A stretch of DNA of 51,956 bases from Halomicronema sp. CCY15110. Its GTDB lineage: Bacteria; Cyanobacteriota; Cyanobacteriia; Phormidesmidales; Phormidesmidaceae. Below are positions 71-10,883 of the stretch, in pieces. The notes beneath the pieces were generated by a model, which was not told where the DNA came from, did not search any database, and worked only from the letters and a program-made list of their open reading frames with translations. The DNA is taken from assembly GCF_016888165.1 (NCBI RefSeq), contig NZ_JACSWC010000319.1:1-51956 (forward strand), written 5' to 3'. The translations under genes and the position numbers were made by a program. Position 1 is the first letter of the stretch. Every line of letters starts with the position of its first letter.

Positions 71-1546
71 CTAAGCAACGTTACCTGTGAGATCGCCTAA
101 TCCTTCACCAGAAAGACCTTTGCGAATGCTTTCGAGCAGCCCAGTGGCACGTTGGCGAAAGCAGAAAACATAGCACTCATCGAGGGCTTTGACCTCAGTT
201 TTGCGGGCATAGGGCTGACGCAAAATCCGGCCTACCAGTTGAGTGATGGCAGTTTTGGAACTGGGATTGGTGAGAACCGTCAGCACATAGGCAAAAGAAC
301 AATCCCAGCCTTCCTGCAAGGCTTGTTTGGTAATGATGTAGCAGATGGGGCAATTCTGACTCAGCAGATCGATGCCCTCGATATCATCCTTTTCACTGGA
401 TTTGATGGCGATCGCATCGGGGCTAATCCCACACTCGCGAATCAAATAGTTTTTGGCATCTTCGGCATGAATGTAATGGAGGTCACCCCGTTGATCGCGT
501 CCCGTCCGCTCGACTTGAATCAAGCAAATCGGACGAATGTAGGTGCCAGTGCGATTGCGATATTCGAGGGCTTGTTTCTCTAGTTCGTCACGTTTAGCAA
601 TGCTATCTCGCAGGCAATCTTTCCAGTCATGGCTGGCTTTATTGGTGAGGTGAATGTCGAGCTTGATCATTTCCTCCCGATTCAAATCTTGTCCCCCAAT
701 GCTGACCAACGCATTACTATTTGGCGGCGGTGTGGCCGAAAGCTCAACGACGATGGACGGGTTGAAATTGCAAATCGTGTCTTGAGAGCCTTTGCTATAG
801 GCTTTATGGCCTTCGTCAATGATGACAATGGGTTGAAGAATGCGGAGGGTGTTGCCCAAAGATGTCTTGATCTGGCTACCGAACAGCGAGTGTTTTTCAC
901 CAAAGCAGTCCAGATTAGGAAACTGCTCTAGCAATTTTTGGTGATCGGGCAGGCGATCGTCCGGTGGGAAGAAGTCATTAAAGCCCGCCGAATCCTGAAA
1001 GATTTTCAGCGTCTCTTTGTTCTTACGGTTGGCGGAAGGCAGCATGAGCAGCAACACTACCAAGCTTTCGGTGATGTCAGCCGGGGTGAAGCGTTCTGTT
1101 TTTTCGACAATTTTGGTGCGATAGCCGCTGTTAACATCCAACACTTGGCGATAAGGGTGCTCACGGGTGCGGAGGGCTTTGAGGGTTTGGCGATAGATCT
1201 GGTTGGTGGGCACAATCCACAACACCAGACCCGTTTGTCGCTGGCGGTAGTGGGCGTTGATTAGGCCGATGCTATGGGTAGCCAGTAAGGTTTTGCCGCC
1301 GCCAGTGGGCACCTTGATGCAAAAGTTGGGCAGGGGTTCACCTAAGCCATTGCGCTTGGAATGGTAAATAGCGCCTTGAAAGGTTTTCGTATCTTTGGTT
1401 TTGCTCCAAGCCTGTCGCGGAAAGTCAAAAGCATAATCAGGATCTTCAGCCACATCGCGATCGTACTTGGCTTTTAATTTCGCCAAGTGCCCGAGGTACG
1501 CTCTGACCTCGTCTAAACAATGTTGCTGGTAATCCTTGAGTTCCAC
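71..1546 (-). CDS. Type III restriction enzyme Res subunit, C-terminally truncated (helicase part only)
   Basis: A superfamily-2 helicase/translocase of the type III Res kind, 491 residues. Visible motifs in order: Walker A PTGGGKT (about residues 80-86), the DEAH-box variant DEGH (244-247), motif III SATPP (270-274), QEGWDC (411-416) and motif VI QLVGRILRQPYA (436-447). In the family these drive ATP-dependent translocation, and a PD-(D/E)XK nuclease domain follows, giving about 850-1000 residues. Here the frame ends with TAG only about 44 residues after motif VI, so the nuclease domain is absent. The start is GTG, chosen because TAGGAGG lies 7 bases upstream and overlaps the stop of the preceding Uma2 gene, which implies translational coupling. 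It is the third gene of mod-Uma2-res. Either the gene is decayed or interrupted, or it works as a nuclease-less translocase. Only 70 bases beyond the stop are visible, so the cause cannot be settled here. Confidence 0.85.
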   Translation of the reverse strand: MELKDYQQHCLDEVRAYLGHLAKLKAKYDRDVAEDPDYAFDFPRQAWSKTKDTKTFQGAIYHSKRNGLGEPLPNFCIKVPTGGGKTLLATHSIGLINAHYRQRQTGLVLWIVPTNQIYRQTLKALRTREHPYRQVLDVNSGYRTKIVEKTERFTPADITESLVVLLLMLPSANRKNKETLKIFQDSAGFNDFFPPDDRLPDHQKLLEQFPNLDCFGEKHSLFGSQIKTSLGNTLRILQPIVIIDEGHKAYSKGSQDTICNFNPSIVVELSATPPPNSNALVSIGGQDLNREEMIKLDIHLTNKASHDWKDCLRDSIAKRDELEKQALEYRNRTGTYIRPICLIQVERTGRDQRGDLHYIHAEDAKNYLIRECGISPDAIAIKSSEKDDIEGIDLLSQNCPICYIITKQALQEGWDCSFAYVLTVLTNPSSKTAITQLVGRILRQPYARKTEVKALDECYVFCFRQRATGLLESIRKGLSGEGLGDLTGNVA

Positions 1547-1557
1547 AGATACGCCTC

Positions 1558-2166
1558 CTACAACTGACCAGCGGCAAAAATGGCGCTGGCTGCAAACTGC
1601 AACTCAGGGAAAATCGCAGAGGTTAGGGTGTCACCTGGGCGGAACTGAGACTTTTGATACAAATCATCCGCTAGCTGGCAAATGGTCAGGGTGGGCTGTT
1701 TGGTTTTGCCGATGTATTCTCGACCGCCCAAACCCAGATAGTCGGCAATCCAGTATTCCGGCACCCCTAGCAGGGCATAGTCTTCAACCTTGCGGGCATA
1801 GTCATTTTGCCAGTTAGTGCTGACGACTTCGGCAATGAGCTTGATTGCGACCCCAGAGGTAATGACAGGTTGCGACTGCCAAAGCGGTTCTTGAACCAGC
1901 TTTGTTTGGTCTAAAACGATGACATCAGGACGAAAAGCGGTGTCATTAGAAACGCGAATCAAACAGCGGTGGGGAATGAAATAGGGCAAATTGAGACGGT
2001 CAATTTCCACATTGAGCTTGCGAGCCAGAAAGCCAATTACTTGTTCATGCAACCCGGTCGGTTCCACGTCAATTAATTCCCCATCAATGAGTTCATACTG
2101 ATCTTGATCGCCGTACTGGGTGATAAATTCATCAACCGTTAATAACTTGGGATGGGCTTGAATCAT
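1558..2166 (-). CDS. Uma2-family (DUF820) PD-(D/E)XK nuclease-like protein
   Basis: A 202-residue protein with the Uma2/DUF820 pattern: YELIDGEL near residue 24, FRPDVIVLD near the middle, then AEVVST followed by KVEDYALLGVPEYWIAD. The conserved RPD, the glutamate of AEV and the lysine of the KVEDY segment match the restriction-endonuclease-like fold of this family. Uma2 proteins are very numerous in cyanobacteria and their substrates are mostly unknown. The gene sits between mod (14 bases upstream) and res (11 bases downstream), so the three are probably co-transcribed. TAGGA lies a few bases before the ATG. Whether it cuts DNA as part of the restriction system, or merely inserted there, is inference. 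The family assignment is solid and the role is not. Confidence 0.88.
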   Translation of the reverse strand: MIQAHPKLLTVDEFITQYGDQDQYELIDGELIDVEPTGLHEQVIGFLARKLNVEIDRLNLPYFIPHRCLIRVSNDTAFRPDVIVLDQTKLVQEPLWQSQPVITSGVAIKLIAEVVSTNWQNDYARKVEDYALLGVPEYWIADYLGLGGREYIGKTKQPTLTICQLADDLYQKSQFRPGDTLTSAIFPELQFAASAIFAAGQL

Positions 2167-2180
2167 TGTTCCTACTCGGT

Positions 2181-3800
2181 TTATTTATAAATCTCGAAGG
2201 GAAGCTGACAGTATTCGATTCGTTTATTGAGTAGCGTGTCATTGTCCAAATATTTCATGGGCGCAAAGACCAGGCGTGTTTTGCTATTCGGTTTCGGTTG
2301 GCCCAGCGCATCGGCTTTGTCTAGGTCGAAGGCGGTAGAGCGTAAATATGTTAGGTCAGGCTCATAAAACAGGTAAACTTCGTATTGTGAGCTTGTGCCG
2401 ATGTAGTGACGGCTGCTGTCGATTTTGGCGGGGTCAAACTCGTCGCCAGTGGCGGTGTAGAACACGTAGCGGGCGAGGTCTTCATAGGTGGGCAGAGTAT
2501 CGCCTTCTAAAATGGCCTGCATCTCCACCGGATCACCCAACGCAAAAAACGAGAAACTGCCACCCAAGCCATTTTTCAACGCTTCGTCTTTAGCCTTCGG
2601 CACTCCCTTAATCACCCGTCGCACTCGTTCCGCTGTCAACGAGTCGGCATAGTCTTCCATCTCAATGAGAATAAACTTGCGGTTTCCGCCATCTTCTTTG
2701 TTCAGCGCCAAAACCGAATGAGCGGTTGTTCCTGAACCTGCAAAAGAATCAAGGATAATGGAATCTTTATCTGTGGCAACTTGAAGAATTCGCTTGATTA
2801 GCTTAGATGGCTTTGGAGTAATGAAGACATCAGCAGAGGTATCAAAATCCAGGATGGAAAGTAGTTCTTTTTTGGCGTCCTGGGTGTGACCAGCATCTTT
2901 ATACGACCAAATAGTCTGAGGTACTAAACCTTGTTTAACGTCACTCAGAAATCTTTTTAATCTGGGCATATTCTTTCCAGAATCTCCCCACCAAATTCGA
3001 TTATCTTTATCTAGTTCTAGAAATTTTTCATAAGAGATCCGCCAGTATGTTCCGGTAGGATTCGAGTATTTTTTGCCTGAAGGACTGGTCACTTCATACT
3101 GACCCTTACTATATGGATTACGGGCAGTTAAATTGTCTGATGCCCAATCTCCTCTAGAATCATTATCAAGATTTTCATATCTATTATTCATTTCATCTGT
3201 TCTTGGCAGTAAATTAAGCTGCCAGTCTGACGCATCTCTCGCGTAGACAATAATGTAATCGTGAGACTCCGAAAAAAATCGAGCAGAATTTTTAGGGGCA
3301 AAATTCTTTTGCCAAATAACAGATGCAATAAAGTTTTCACCCCAAAAAATTTCATCCATTAACATCCGCAGATGATGGACTTCGTTGTCATCAATGGACA
3401 CAAAAATCACGCCATCGTCCCGCAATAACTCTCGCAGCAGCTTTAAGCGGGGCATCATCATACACAGCCACTTGTCATGCCGGGCCAGGTCTTCCTTGTC
3501 CACTGGGCTGTTCGCCTTCAGCCATTCCTGCATCATCGGCGAATTTACATTGTCGTTATAGATCCACCCCTCATTGCCCGTGTTGTAAGGCGGGTCAATG
3601 TAGATGCACTTCACCTTGCCTGCGTAGGTCGGCAACAGTGCCTTCAGTGCCAGCAGGTTATCGCCCTGGAGGATCAGGTTGTCGTGCAGGCTGACTTTAT
3701 CCGTAAGGCTCGCTTCCGGCTGCGGCACCAGGTGATGGTACTTCAGGGTGAGGTGGTGATTTTGAACGTAGGACTTGCCCTTAAAGTGGATCGTCGCCAT
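2181..3800 (-). CDS. mod: Type III (beta-class) adenine-specific DNA methyltransferase Mod
   Basis: A 539-residue site-specific DNA methyltransferase. The catalytic motif DPPYNTG (residues 69-75) comes before the AdoMet-binding motif FAGSGTT (353-359), the order typical of beta-class N6-adenine methyltransferases of type III systems. The region between them (about 165-330) is where the target-recognition domain normally lies. In the DNA that stretch (about 2810-3305) is clearly richer in A+T than both flanks, as expected of an exchanged recognition domain. The ATG is preceded by AGGAGG at a rather long spacing of 12 bases. It is the first gene of an apparent operon with the Uma2 and res genes. 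Both methyltransferase motifs are intact, so this subunit could be active even though the Res partner looks truncated. Sequence specificity cannot be read from the gene. Confidence 0.9.
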   Translation of the reverse strand: MATIHFKGKSYVQNHHLTLKYHHLVPQPEASLTDKVSLHDNLILQGDNLLALKALLPTYAGKVKCIYIDPPYNTGNEGWIYNDNVNSPMMQEWLKANSPVDKEDLARHDKWLCMMMPRLKLLRELLRDDGVIFVSIDDNEVHHLRMLMDEIFWGENFIASVIWQKNFAPKNSARFFSESHDYIIVYARDASDWQLNLLPRTDEMNNRYENLDNDSRGDWASDNLTARNPYSKGQYEVTSPSGKKYSNPTGTYWRISYEKFLELDKDNRIWWGDSGKNMPRLKRFLSDVKQGLVPQTIWSYKDAGHTQDAKKELLSILDFDTSADVFITPKPSKLIKRILQVATDKDSIILDSFAGSGTTAHSVLALNKEDGGNRKFILIEMEDYADSLTAERVRRVIKGVPKAKDEALKNGLGGSFSFFALGDPVEMQAILEGDTLPTYEDLARYVFYTATGDEFDPAKIDSSRHYIGTSSQYEVYLFYEPDLTYLRSTAFDLDKADALGQPKPNSKTRLVFAPMKYLDNDTLLNKRIEYCQLPFEIYK

Positions 3801-6122: not shown

Positions 6123-6911
6123 ATGACGTTGATATTGGGATATGTGCTGGCGATCGCGATCGGCCTGAGCCTAGGGCTCATCGGCGGCGGTGGCTCGGTG
6201 TTGGCCGTGCCCATCATGGTTTACGTGTTGGGGGTACCGGCTAAGTCGGCGATCGCTATGAGCATGTTCGTCGTGGGGTTCGTCAGTCTGTTAGGCGTGA
6301 TTCCCCACTGGCAACAGGGCAATGTGAATTTCAAAACCTTCATGACTTTCACCCCCGCCGCGATGTTGGGCACCTTTTTGGGAGCCAAAATTGCCGGTTT
6401 GCCCTGGGTGAACGATACCTTTCAACTAGTGGCGTTTGGCATCGTGATGGTGGTTACGAGCTTGTTTATGATTCGTCAAAGCAGCCGTAAACCGCAGCCA
6501 AGCAGTGTGGGCGCGATGGCGCGGCATGAACCGCAACCACATCACGGCAGGTTGCCTACATGGCTACTCATTCCCCTAGAAGGAATCGTGGTTGGCATTG
6601 TGACCGGATTTGTCGGGGTTGGTGGTGGCTTTCTGATTATTCCGGCGCTAGTGCTGTTAGGCGGCATTCCGATGAAAGAGGCCGTGGGCACCTCGCTCCT
6701 GATCATCGCCTTCAAGTCAGCGATCGGGTTTATGGAATATCTCAACTACGTGACCTTAGATTGGCAACTCATGTTGACGTTTACCCTCGCTGCCAGCATC
6801 GGCATGGGGGCAGGCGTTTACCTCTCGCGCAGTATCGATGGTCGACATTTGCAAAAGGGCTTTGGGTACTTTGTCCTCGCTGTCGCTGTATTTGTGCTGC
6901 TGAAGCGATGA
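6123..6911 (+). CDS. TauE/SafE-family sulfite exporter-like permease
   Basis: A 262-residue polytopic membrane protein of the TauE/SafE (formerly DUF81) family. The family pattern is seen twice: [20 protein letters not shown] near the N-terminus and [19 protein letters not shown] in the second half, each followed by the KSAIAMS / KEAVGTS type segment. Seven or eight hydrophobic segments are interrupted by a short polar, histidine-containing loop at about residues 120-145. Members export organosulfur anions or move other small anions; the substrate here is unknown. A good Shine-Dalgarno (GAGAGGAGA) precedes the ATG. It is divergent from mnmG and separated from the next gene by a spacer with a G-rich tandem repeat, so it is probably a single-gene unit. 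Confidence 0.9.
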
Positions 6912-6960
6912 GGCCCATCGTTGATAGGCGAGCCGATCAAACACATCCGGTTGTAAGTAG

Positions 6961-7008
6961 TGGCTGGGTGGATGGGTGGATGGGTGGATGGGTGGATGGG
7001 TGGATGGG
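6961..7008 (+). repeat. 8-bp tandem repeat TGG(C/A)TGGG, six copies
   Basis: Five perfect head-to-tail copies of TGGATGGG occupy 6969-7008 and are preceded by one variant copy, TGGCTGGG, at 6961-6968. The G-runs on one strand could form a G-quadruplex or cause slippage. It lies between two same-strand membrane protein genes. The variant unit TGGCTGGG recurs in the spacers near 15576 and 27641. Confidence 0.95.
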
Positions 7009-7175
7009 TATCGGTAGTATGCGTCACCAACGGCTTACAGCGCTTGGGGGGCACCCCATCATCAAAACCTCATGGTCTCTGGCGATCAGCGGGCTACTTC
7101 GCGGGGCGTGATCTGTTATAGATGAATGGAGGTTTTTAGCTGCTTTTGGCTACGCCCAAGGACGACCCAGGTTGT

Positions 7176-8327
7176 ATGGCTTCTAACGAACAGCGCATAT
7201 CCATTTCTCTCAGCAGCGTGGTGTTGCTGGTGTTGTCAGTCCCGTTGCTGGCGCTGTTATGGCAACTGCGCAGCTTGTTTTTGCTGGTGATGATTGCGAT
7301 CGTCTTGGCCGCGTCGATCGCGCCCGTGGTCGATTGGGCGGAGCGGTATCGGGTACCGCGCTGGTTGGGGGTGGTGCTGACGTATCTCGCGATCGCCGCC
7401 ATCATCACGGGCGTCGCCTTTTGGGTGGGTCCCACCGTGGTGGAACAAATTCAGCGATTAATTCGCCAAATTCCCGTCTCGCTCAAACAGATTCTCGATT
7501 ACGCCGAGACTTGGGTCGTTTCGCTTAACGACGAGCGCCCCGACTTTGCCAGTGAGTTGATTAACCAATTCGTGGATGTGCAGGGTCTCACCCGCTGGGT
7601 CATTCGCTCCAGTCAGCAACTACTCGTGCGCTCCTATGGACTGACGACAGGCATTTTGGGCGGCTTTTTTAGCGTGATTTTGGCCCTCTTTTTGTCGGGG
7701 TATATGCTGGCCGACAGCCGCACCCTGATCAAGAACCTGGTGCGCTTGTTGCCCCAACCCTGGGACGATCGCCTCGCCGCCCAAGTTGGCCCCATGAGCA
7801 ACCGCATCGGTAGCTATCTGCGCGGGCGCTTGCTCGTCTCCACGATTCTGGCCGTCGCCACCACCGTCAGCCTCACGATTTTGGGCCTGTCAGACTTTGC
7901 TTTGGGCCTGGGTGCCATTTCTGGTTTTACCAACCTCATTCCCTTTTTGGGGCCAATTTTGGGGGCGATTCCGGCCCTGGTAGTCGCGATTTCGCAGGGG
8001 GGCTGGACCATCCTTTGGGTGTTGATCTTGTACATCGTGATCCAAAATCTGGAAACCTACGTGCTTGACCCCTTGCTAGTCGGCACGTCCGTGGGAGTGC
8101 ATCCGCTGTATCAACTCCTCGCCGTACTTGGGGGCACCCAAGTTTTGGGCATCATCGGGGCGCTGATCGTGCCTCCGTGGATTGCGGGCGGGGCGGTGCT
8201 GCTGGAAAACCTGTATTTGCGACCTAAACTCATGGCGGAGCGACGGCGATCGCTCCCGACTAAATCTCCCTCGGAAACTCCCGTCGGCAATCGTCCGTCT
8301 CCTAGTCCCATGATGGCTGACGGCTAG
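7176..8327 (+). CDS. AI-2E family (PerM/YhhT-like) membrane transporter
   Basis: A 383-residue protein of the AI-2E transporter family (PF01594). It has an N-terminal pair of hydrophobic segments, an amphipathic soluble-looking region (about residues 95-150), then four to five further membrane spans. The family's conserved C-terminal stretch is visible as GFTNLIPFLGPILGAIPA followed by DPLLVGTSVGVHPL. The name comes from E. coli TqsA, but most members, including cyanobacterial ones, have no proven substrate, so autoinducer export should not be assumed. A TTG at 7146 in the same frame sits 13 bases after GGAGG and would add ten residues; I prefer the ATG. The C-terminal tail is polar and rich in arginine, serine and proline. 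Confidence 0.9.
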   Translation: MASNEQRISISLSSVVLLVLSVPLLALLWQLRSLFLLVMIAIVLAASIAPVVDWAERYRVPRWLGVVLTYLAIAAIITGVAFWVGPTVVEQIQRLIRQIPVSLKQILDYAETWVVSLNDERPDFASELINQFVDVQGLTRWVIRSSQQLLVRSYGLTTGILGGFFSVILALFLSGYMLADSRTLIKNLVRLLPQPWDDRLAAQVGPMSNRIGSYLRGRLLVSTILAVATTVSLTILGLSDFALGLGAISGFTNLIPFLGPILGAIPALVVAISQGGWTILWVLILYIVIQNLETYVLDPLLVGTSVGVHPLYQLLAVLGGTQVLGIIGALIVPPWIAGGAVLLENLYLRPKLMAERRRSLPTKSPSETPVGNRPSPSPMMADG

Positions 8328-8429
8328 CCGTAGACCGCCTGATTTAGCGTCAAGGGCAGCCGAACGCATTACAAAGCCTCTACAGCGGGTGGTAATCCTG
8401 AGAGGATGTGTCAATATAAGGAGCTAGAT

Positions 8430-8471
8430 TTGACCTTGCTAGATGCACTGTTTTGGGTAGTGGGCGAATGA
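8430..8471 (+). other. Possible 13-codon upstream ORF (leader peptide) overlapping the next gene
   Basis: AAGGAG at 8418-8423 is followed six bases later by TTG and a short frame encoding roughly MTLLDALFWVVGE. Its TGA (8469-8471) overlaps the ATG of the next gene in an ATGA arrangement. The downstream ATG has no good ribosome-binding site of its own, so coupled translation through this ORF is a sensible reading, but there is no direct evidence that the peptide is made. Confidence 0.35.
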
Positions 8472-9217
8472 TTGGGATCAAAAATCTGCGGTGGTGGGGC
8501 TTAACCTTGTTGTTGGCGTCGGGTGGCCTGGCTGCCCCCCGGGCCTGGGCGGATGAGTTTCCCCCTTGTGCGCCGCCCAATGCCAGCGAGTATCTGTTGC
8601 TCGTGCAGGGCGACACGGTCGAAGCCCGCGATCGCATTCAAAACCTGCTGCCCACCACCACCATCGTGAGTGTGTGTCGGTATTTGGACGATGTAGTCGT
8701 TCGCGCAGGCGGCTTCACCAGTCTGGAAAATGCCAACGCCTGGGCTCAGTATTTGACCGAAGCCGAAGGGGCACAAGCTTTTGTCGCCCGCCCAGCGGCT
8801 CCTGGCGAAGTGACCACCAGCACCCCCATTACCGCCGAACCCGTCACTACTCCCGAACCTGCCCCGGAGCCGGCCACCCCGGAACCCACTGCCCCCGCCA
8901 CCACACCCACACCACTGCCCACGGAATCGGTGGCCCCGGCTGAAGTGGCCTATGCCCCGAAACTATTGGGCGAGGGCTATGCCGTGTTGGTGAACTACAG
9001 CAATAATCCTGACATCGCCAAACAGCTCCAGCAATTCCTCAATCAGCCAGTGGGATTAGCCATTTATCAACAGCAACCCTTTTTGCTCGCGGCCCAAAGT
9101 CCCGACCCGCAGGCGGCAGCGCAAGTGCTACAAACGCTGAGCAACAACCGATTTGGGGCATTCATTGTCGATAGCAGCGAAGTTGTGTTGCTCTCCGACG
9201 CCGTCGCAACGCCTTGA
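8468..9217 (+). CDS. Secreted protein with two SPOR-like halves joined by a Pro/Thr/Glu linker
   Basis: A 249-residue hypothetical protein. The N-terminus has a twin-tryptophan and leucine-rich segment ending in an Ala-x-Ala-type site (ARAWADEF region), consistent with a cleaved signal peptide. Two similar domains follow. The first (about 30-105) contains YLLLVQGDTVEARDRIQ and two cysteines; the second (about 165-245) contains YAVLVNYSNNPDIAKQL. They are separated by about 45 residues dominated by proline, threonine, alanine and glutamate. Both halves resemble SPOR-type beta-alpha-beta repeats, which bind denuded peptidoglycan in other proteins; this similarity is my inference. A TTG at 8453 in frame is an alternative start. 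The short upstream ORF overlapping its ATG may couple translation. It converges with purM, with only nine bases between the genes. Confidence 0.75.
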   Translation: MIGIKNLRWWGLTLLLASGGLAAPRAWADEFPPCAPPNASEYLLLVQGDTVEARDRIQNLLPTTTIVSVCRYLDDVVVRAGGFTSLENANAWAQYLTEAEGAQAFVARPAAPGEVTTSTPITAEPVTTPEPAPEPATPEPTAPATTPTPLPTESVAPAEVAYAPKLLGEGYAVLVNYSNNPDIAKQLQQFLNQPVGLAIYQQQPFLLAAQSPDPQAAAQVLQTLSNNRFGAFIVDSSEVVLLSDAVATP

Positions 9218-9226
9218 CGACCTTCA

Positions 9227-10285
9227 TCACTCCGCGCCGGGAATGCCGCTGAGCCGACCATCGCCGTCAACGACCTCACCGATCGCATAGGCGGCAATGT
9301 CTTGTGATTGAAAGTGGGCGATCGCTGCTTCCTGTTGCGCAGACGGCACAATTACAACGAACCCTATCCCCATATTGAAAGTGTTGTACATCGCCTCAGC
9401 AGACACCTGACCCGCCGCTGCCAGCCACTCAAAAATCGGCAACACGGGCCAACTGTCGGCATTGAGCATGATCGAATGGCGATCGCTTAGGCAGCGGGGC
9501 AGATTTTCCGGTAAGCCGCCACCAGTGATATGAGCCATCGCGTGAATCGAGAGCCCCGCCTGCTGCGCTGCGAGAATCGGTTTTACGTAAAGCCGGGTGG
9601 GTGTCAGCAGCGTCTCTGCCAGGGAAGCGCCATTCAGCATTGCCGGACATTCAGCCCAATCATAGCCAGGGGTGTCGCGATCGCCCCGCGCCGCTTCGGC
9701 CATAATCTTGCGCACCAAGCTGTAACCATTGCTGTGAATGCCGCGACTCGCTAACCCGATCACTGCATCGCCAGTCGCCACCTGTGAGCCGTCAAGGATG
9801 GCAGATTTTTCCACAATACCGACACAAAAGCCCGCCAGGTCATATTCCCCTGGCCCATAAAATCCCGGCATTTCCGCCGTTTCGCCCCCAATCAGGGCGC
9901 AGCCCGTCTCCCGACAGCCCGTGGCAATCCCTTCAACTACCGCCGCCAGTTGTTCTTCATCGAGTTTTCCCGTCGCCAAATAATCCAAAAAGAACAGCGG
10001 TTCCGCCCCGCAGGTCAGCACATCGTTGACGCACATCGCCACCAGGTCAATGCCCACCGTGTTGTGCCGGTTGAGGGTTTGGGCCACCTTGAGCTTGGTG
10101 CCCACGCCATCGGTGCCCGAGACCAACACTGGCGTCTGATACCCCGAGGGCAGTTGAAACAACCCACCAAAGCCGCCTAAACCCCCCAACACTTCGGGGC
10201 GGCGCGTACTGCCCACCATCTGTTGAATGCGATCGACAAAGGCTCTGCCAGCCACTACATCGACGCCTGCGTCTTGATAATCCAT
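9227..10285 (-). CDS. purM: Phosphoribosylformylglycinamidine cyclo-ligase (AIR synthetase)
   Basis: PurM catalyses the fifth step of purine biosynthesis: ATP-dependent closure of the imidazole ring to give aminoimidazole ribonucleotide. The 352-residue length is typical. Clear signatures are MDYQDAGVD at the N-terminus, [15 protein letters not shown] (about 55-70), [29 protein letters not shown] and the C-terminal [13 protein letters not shown] with NMGIGFVV. The start is ATG at a position expected for the family. It is a single-gene unit on the minus strand facing the SPOR-like gene. Upstream lies a long spacer of about 700 bases before rlpA on the other strand. Confidence 0.97.
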
Positions 10286-10883
10286 AAACCTTGCCCTTTA
10301 GAACGAAATCAGCGAATGCCGTTGAGACAGCGTGACATCTATATATTTTCTGGGCAAACGGTCATCTCGATACCTCAATTAGTTGCTGGGCTTGATGCCC
10401 ATGGCCGCACTCGCCCGATGGCAGTCCCCCGACCCCGCCGGGACAAACGCACCACCACACCGGACACGCACCCTCGCGATCGCCCCGATCAGCCCACGGC
10501 GATGATGGATAAGAAAATCAGCGATCGACAATAATGATTGCTGATTGATTAAGCAGCATTGTCCACAGAGGTGGCACTGCAAAAAATTGCATTATCCATA
10601 GCCAATTTTTAAAATGGCACAGTCCCCATCACCGGAACTGCCATCGCTTTTTCGAAATCTTCACTCCATGGGCGATAAGTTTTATTAACTACCCAAGCCT
10701 GGCTGGCGAAGTCTCAACCAGTCGATTCATAAGGATCTGATAGATTTTAGACATTTTTCACAAACTCTTGACATTCCGCCTTAGAAAAACCCTCGCTGTT
10801 TTCTGCGGATTGCCAATCGAAACGTTCGTGCTAACGTACGGGACGTTCAAACGAACACGAAGGGTTATGTCGAGGTGGACGTG
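10286..10883. other. Intergenic spacer between purM and rlpA
   Basis: No gene recognised. It holds an A/T-rich perfect inverted repeat (AAAAATTG at 10582-10589, CAATTTTT at 10603-10610, 13-base loop) and an exact TTGACA at 10768-10773 without a convincing -10 at the right spacing. Near the end, GTTCGT and ACGAAC form a potential stem just upstream of the short ORF before rlpA. Divergent promoters for purM and rlpA must lie here. Confidence 0.5.

Follow-up and report, generated by a model that had tools for sequence, protein, structure and literature searches.

The cyanobacterium Halomicronema sp. CCY15110 carries, at one end of contig NZ_JACSWC010000319.1, a type III restriction-modification locus in which a gene for a Uma2 (DUF820) protein stands between the DNA methyltransferase gene mod and the restriction gene res. 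The window analyzed here is this whole contig of 51,956 bases, taken from a draft assembly of 443 contigs. It is very likely that the locus is a type III operon whose mod-res junction has received a stand-alone Uma2 gene and whose res is broken off behind codon 490 by an IS4-like insertion sequence. Uma2 itself is most likely a cassette in a junction that repeatedly takes small genes. A first-pass annotation of the same DNA had weighed two possibilities, namely a Uma2 nuclease acting in trans for a naturally short Res, or a decayed res with an inserted solo Uma2 gene. The evidence supports the second, with the insertion sequence as the cause of decay and a gene-accepting junction as the site of Uma2.

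The three genes lie on the minus strand in the order mod, Uma2, res, separated by 14 and 11 bases, an order and spacing proposed at first reading and now upheld by the open reading frames (ORFs), Pfam and PADLOC alike. Pfam assigns N6_N4_Mtase (2.7e-38), Uma2 and ResIII/DEAD to the three products, and PADLOC assigns MTase_III, PDC-S03 and REase_III. The Mod protein matches the PADLOC MTase_III model PDLC03644 over model positions 1-539 of 542 (2.9e-175), as well as the Mod subunits 6k0w_B (3.8e-61) and 4zcf_A, the latter from EcoP15I (1.4e-46), in the PDB. Its translation contains DPPY and FAGSG, which we take to be motifs IV and I. A Mod of type III similarity and a Res with a superfamily 2 helicase region are both present, and the C-terminal PD-(D/E)XK-type nuclease domain of a type III Res is missing from the window ORF. 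As assembled, the locus is a broken, non-working member of the type III restriction-modification systems.

The Res protein holds the helicase motifs that had been read in it (PTGGGKTLL, DEGH, SATPP, QEGWD and QLVGRILRQP), and it does end early, 46 residues beyond QLVGRILRQP and not the 44 or so first counted. Its match to the PADLOC model covers positions 2-515 of 883, in keeping with the nuclease domain having been reported as absent, and the full-length relatives in our alignment have 825-898 residues. A TAGGAGG upstream of the GTG start is present as described, and all 490 remaining codons of res are open, with no stops. The end of the ORF has a foreign origin. The coding sequence of res ends in GGT AAC GTT G, followed by CT TAG from the element; the element starts at window base 75, and therefore the res stop codon belongs to the element. 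The first-pass annotation had proposed to look for the missing nuclease domain to the left of position 1, where the contig stops; no continuation in another frame was found elsewhere in the assembly. The C-terminal half of res is absent from the assembly when sequences of two relatives are used as queries, one returning the 46 residues already in the window and the other no match.

The identity of the terminus rests on its sister copies. Window bases 1-75 recur at 22 other places in the genome, over 72-77 bases and with 99-100% identity, all of them at contig ends, and each of these contigs leaves its own flank, enters the repeat and stops there. A pattern search gave 52 matches, including 23 left termini and 27 similar right termini. 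All 27 right ends were fetched, and for 17 of the 23 left ends one of them shows a matching flank of 9-10 bp. These matching flanks are the footprint of an element that makes 9-bp target-site duplications, and because so many left ends pair in this way, the contig ends at the repeat behave as true insertion sites. The repeat is thus multi-copy, with the 9-bp duplication seen at its sister copies, as is characteristic of insertion sequences. A related element in locus L257 has about 1.33 kb between two such termini and a 401-aa ORF matching DDE_Tnp_1, and the closest match outside the genome, in G005, is 88% identical to the window terminus. The likeness to IS4-like insertion sequences lies in the imperfect inverted termini, the 9-bp duplications and the DDE_Tnp_1 transposase of the related element, and the difference is that a terminus is all that is known for the element of the window. 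The family name is our own assumption from these features. At two pairs of loci, L005/L090 and L054/L077 (contigs C156, C225, C163 and C85), both element ends flank one target site on both sides, as would be seen if the population contained the element in both orientations, or after an inversion.

The relatives of the window Res show what was lost. The C-terminal half was found in all 24 closest loci, which were collected by an N-terminal peptide search (the C-terminal query came from L041, itself among the 24). Residues D751, E772 and K774, in the numbering of relative L026, form a D...E.K site that is invariant across 22 aligned Res relatives and that we take, from knowledge of the superfamily, to be the nuclease site. 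The full-length L026 protein matches the Res subunit of EcoP15I (PDB 4zcf). Res is not naturally short, and since the closest Res loci keep the C-terminal half with its invariant site, Uma2 is no designed nuclease substitute. The locus resembles the EcoP15I type of system in having mod upstream of res on one strand, and in that its Mod and the Res of L026 match EcoP15I subunits. It differs in that the insertion sequence interrupts its res behind the helicase region, and in that Uma2 stands between mod and res.

Cyanobacterial copies of this Res seem prone to breakage, as all five that were found, the window and four others, are broken, with mod at full length in three. In FACHB-1136 (L024), Res begins at residue 72 at a contig end and has two internal stops, and mod is reduced to 126-127 residues. 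In CCP5 (L047), Res begins at residue 403-404 at a contig end beside a full-length mod. Phormidesmis priestleyi (L041) has a res frameshift near residue 226, which may be a sequencing error, and a full-length mod. Of Res in the genome G326 (L157), only the first 93 residues remain, in the interior of a long contig, and the 9 kb read there contain no mod. It is known that restriction tends to be lost before modification. Directly before the 93-residue stub, at L157:2560-3107, there is a HicB-like gene that scores below the Pfam cut-off.

The Uma2 gene, by contrast with res, appears complete. Its product scores 107 bits against the Uma2 profile (PF05685; cut-off 27) over positions 2-170 of 172, and it matches PDB 9y1l_A (4.2e-07). 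Residues D81, E113 and K126 are invariant in an alignment of 11 sequences, in the D/E/K arrangement of a PD-(D/E)XK-type site, and are presumably the catalytic residues. Against two relatives, the ratio of nonsynonymous to synonymous substitution (dN/dS) is 0.03 and 0.09, with synonymous sites near saturation. Pieces of Uma2, mod and res compared with relatives give nonsynonymous differences (pN) of 0.05-0.20 and synonymous differences (pS) of 0.66-0.88, the synonymous sites being saturated or nearly so. Matches to Uma2 (E<=1e-30) occur in 55 of the 63 genomes of the order, its own included, often several per genome. The stretches around the ten best matches outside the window (65-84% identity) contain no mod or res match, and three of the ten (L141, L143 and L144) lie near a UPF0175-DUF3368 pair or a HicB-like gene. 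The gene thus resembles the Uma2/DUF820 family (COG4636; PADLOC PDC-S03) in its near full-length profile match, its conserved D/E/K residues and its many copies in the order, and differs in lying inside a type III operon, neither alone nor in a cassette of paralogues; its activity is predicted. A comparative survey describes Uma2 as a likely solo toxin that is highly abundant in cyanobacteria (PMC2701414), and this survey and a second paper predict Uma2/DUF820 to belong to the PD-(D/E)XK superfamily (PMC2701414, PMC1913061). As a proposed solo toxin, Uma2 therefore fits as a further occupant of a recurrent slot between mod and res.

This slot was surveyed in 64 junctions besides the window, comprising 16 of the window's class, 20 from other genomes of the closest Res loci and 28 from other classes of the phylum. 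The loci were picked by Res or Mod similarity and not at random. The 28 loci of other classes represent one family except for L215, and contain the near-duplicates L210/L216 and L215/L219, as well as L206 and L207, which share a Bro-N protein. The count leaves out L034, L200, L205, L220, L229, L237, L240, L246 and L249, where mod or res was not legible or the gene order was not the usual one. Locus L036 was counted as empty through tblastn, the ORF caller having missed its res, and L151 as occupied, being read up to HicB with res beyond the contig. One of the loci left out, L220, has a type III locus in reversed order, with res upstream of mod (6285-10879).

In 38 of the 64 junctions, mod and res adjoin directly or almost directly (at -162 to 115 bases in the ORF calls, with L036 read by tblastn), and the remaining 26 hold another gene. 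In 23 of these 26, one ORF encodes a full-length Res, the exceptions being L041, L151 and L227. A Uma2 gene was found in none of the 64 junctions by tblastn and Pfam families (L151 being read only to HicB), and the Uma2 profile run over 907 ORFs gave three matches, none inside a junction. The triplet of mod, Uma2 and short res, which the first-pass annotation had proposed to look for in other genomes, was therefore not recovered. Within the window's class, 6 of the 16 junctions are occupied, each by a toxin-antitoxin-type pair, and 10 are empty; the six span at least three PADLOC Res models. The slot seems to be general, since other cyanobacteria carry HicAB, MNT-HEPN or UPF0175-DUF3368 there (Table 1). 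Among Pfam families of the slots, only HicA, HicB and VapB are named as toxin or antitoxin, and we treat UPF0175-DUF3368, DUF433-DUF5615 and MNT-HEPN as toxin-antitoxin-type pairs as well. Other genomes of the closest Res loci have 3 of 20 junctions occupied. In the other classes of the phylum, 17 of 28 are occupied, and slot proteins were scanned at 14 of those 17 loci, giving a Pfam family above cut-off in six and none in eight; no type II pair is among the families of these 14 slots.

Table 1. Coordinates of the operon and element terminus in the window, and occupants of mod-res junctions at other loci
Feature	Position or locus	Strand	Remarks
mod, type III DNA methyltransferase	2181-3800	minus	ORF of 539 aa, apparently intact
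Uma2 (DUF820) protein	1558-2166	minus	ORF of 202 aa, apparently intact
res-like ORF	71-1546	minus	491 aa, GTG start
res 5' part (codons 1-490), type III helicase region, interrupted	76-1546	minus	Pfam, PADLOC, alignment
IS4-like left terminus, start CTTAGTGGTGCAG	1-75	minus	Supplies the TAG stop of the res ORF (71-73); contig ends inside
Expected 9-bp target-site duplication, adjoining the element	76-84	minus	Deduced from sister copies
HicAB between mod and res	L041:7450-7934; L151:2-468; L201:5942-6437		Cyanobacteria
MNT-HEPN between mod and res	L223:5899-6565; L238:12067-12733		Cyanobacteria
UPF0175-DUF3368 between mod and res	L239:7640-8372		Cyanobacteria
DUF433-DUF5615	L039		mod-res junction
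VapB and truncated partner	L042		mod-res junction; partner judged by eye
One protein without family	L031		mod-res junction
Abi_C and Bro-N	L207		Other-class mod-res junction
YaaC	L215		Other-class mod-res junction
Bro-N	L227		Other-class mod-res junction
Abi_alpha	L242		Other-class mod-res junction
DUF3644 and EC042_2821	L244		Other-class mod-res junction
Sheath_initiator	L218		Other-class mod-res junction

Flanking genes served as a control for the slot. At 15 loci of the window's class, two ORFs of at least 60 aa were taken per side, which gave 56 ORFs on 29 of 30 sides. These contained one toxin-antitoxin-type pair (DUF2281-PIN, at L201), three Uma2, three AIPR and one XisI, as judged from the best 25 of 66 families, with 20 of the 56 ORFs scanned singly, so that a weak or longer toxin gene could escape. 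With Uma2 and AIPR among them, the flanks are therefore not free of defence-type genes, and the slot stands out from them by the two-gene pair. Toxin-antitoxin-type pairs occupy 6 of 16 slots versus 1 of 29 flank sides (Fisher p 0.0054), in a test that was picked after seeing the data, uses non-random loci and counts toxin-antitoxin-type pairs only. In the flanks of the other two groups (65 of 66 ORFs and 102 ORFs), the families listed first (25 of 75 and 25 of 90) include at least two HigB-like toxins and one ApeA-type HEPN protein, taken over each group as a whole and not locus by locus. Elsewhere in the window, at 6960-7009, GTGGATGG is repeated in tandem in 6.2 copies.

The slot pattern invites a functional reading, in which the gene between mod and res is a partner of the restriction system, acting as an addiction or guardian module with Uma2 as the toxin here. 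It is modelled on PrrC, which is embedded in the type IC locus ecoprrI and senses restriction inhibition (PMC12707154). The two cases are alike in that a toxin-type gene lies inside a restriction operon, and differ in that the sensor role of PrrC in its type I system has been tested, whereas Uma2 and the slot pairs are known here from their genes. The excess of toxin-antitoxin-type pairs in the junctions over the flank sides of the window's class speaks for such a partnership, as do the Abi_C, Abi_alpha, YaaC, Bro-N or DUF3644 proteins in junctions of other classes and the proposal that Uma2 is a solo toxin (PMC2701414). Yet 10 of the 16 class junctions are empty and the occupants vary among relatives; the flanks, too, contain defence-type genes (three AIPR and three Uma2 of 56 ORFs), and only 6 of the 14 scanned slots of other classes have a Pfam family, none of them a type II pair. 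Moreover, the Synechocystis hox (hydrogenase) operon contains a DUF820 gene and a toxin-antitoxin pair (PMC4963859). It is like the window in having both kinds of gene within an operon and unlike it in its host, a hydrogenase as opposed to a restriction system, and passive insertion therefore accounts for the slot pattern as well. Among the papers listed in a literature search that also covered Uma2 and broken res genes, no title or abstract deals with a type III locus whose mod-res junction carries toxin-antitoxin or abortive-infection genes, which is not proof of absence. By analogy with PrrC, a partnership would be conceivable, and we hold it to be unlikely. We are equally doubtful of the wider proposal that the mod-res junction may be a recurrent docking slot for toxin-antitoxin and abortive-infection genes that serve the restriction system as modules of addiction or guarding, Uma2 being the single-gene form in this cyanobacterium.

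The break in res might instead be an artefact of assembly, with res intact in the cell and the contig wrongly joined to a repeat. A draft of 443 contigs does break at this repeat, and the window copy lacks a partner end: the 9-bp flank expected from the window is missing from all 27 right ends, the best match being 5 bp. Nevertheless, the duplications that pair 17 of 23 left ends show the contig ends at this repeat behaving as true insertion sites, and the queries from two relatives found no C-terminal half of res in the assembly, which makes this explanation very improbable. The least credible account is the three-part restriction system in which Mod would recognize the target, a short Res would translocate and Uma2 would cut in trans; although the tight operon, the conserved Uma2 residues, the TAGGAGG before res and the 490 codons without stops agree with it, the short Res is made by the end of the element, the C-terminal half persists in all 24 closest Res loci, the order and short Res are not kept in other lineages (Uma2 in 0 of 64 other junctions), and occupied junctions elsewhere go with a full-length Res in 23 of 26.

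Several points nevertheless weigh against a type III operon with a stand-alone Uma2 and an element-cut res. Neither the right end of the element nor the 3' part of res was found, and deletion, rearrangement or an absent short contig are indistinguishable as causes; the shortest contig met has 3,309 bases, and short contigs may therefore be missing from the assembly. Part of the population may still carry an intact res. No body was recovered for the window's own element, leaving the 75-base terminus as its sole trace, and the G005 stretch read (L250) contains no transposase ORF, so that the window's element may be non-autonomous. A C-terminal Res query at 1e-5 matched only 4 of 12 more distant Res loci, the G326 stub being among the 12; this would be expected at about 33% identity, yet it provides no positive test. 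Finally, the tight placement of Uma2 in the operon makes co-expression, and with it some functional link, possible.

Taking the operon to be a type III locus with an inserted Uma2 and a res interrupted by an insertion sequence, its history would consist of two separate events, the arrival of Uma2 and the insertion of the element, in either order. The IS4-like element would have inserted into res after codon 490, its TAG then ending the ORF, and this insertion was probably recent. Mod would be left as an orphan methyltransferase and Uma2 as an independent nuclease or solo-toxin cassette. The operon would no longer restrict, Mod may still methylate, and Uma2 would presumably act as an independent cassette.

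These results remove a false lead, that of a restriction enzyme with its nuclease supplied in trans, and illustrate that in a draft genome the terminus of an insertion sequence can mimic the natural end of a protein. They also provide a testable pattern, the recurrence of small toxin-type modules between mod and res. Should the slot modules act as guards of restriction, in the manner of PrrC in its type I locus, guardian modules would extend to type III systems.

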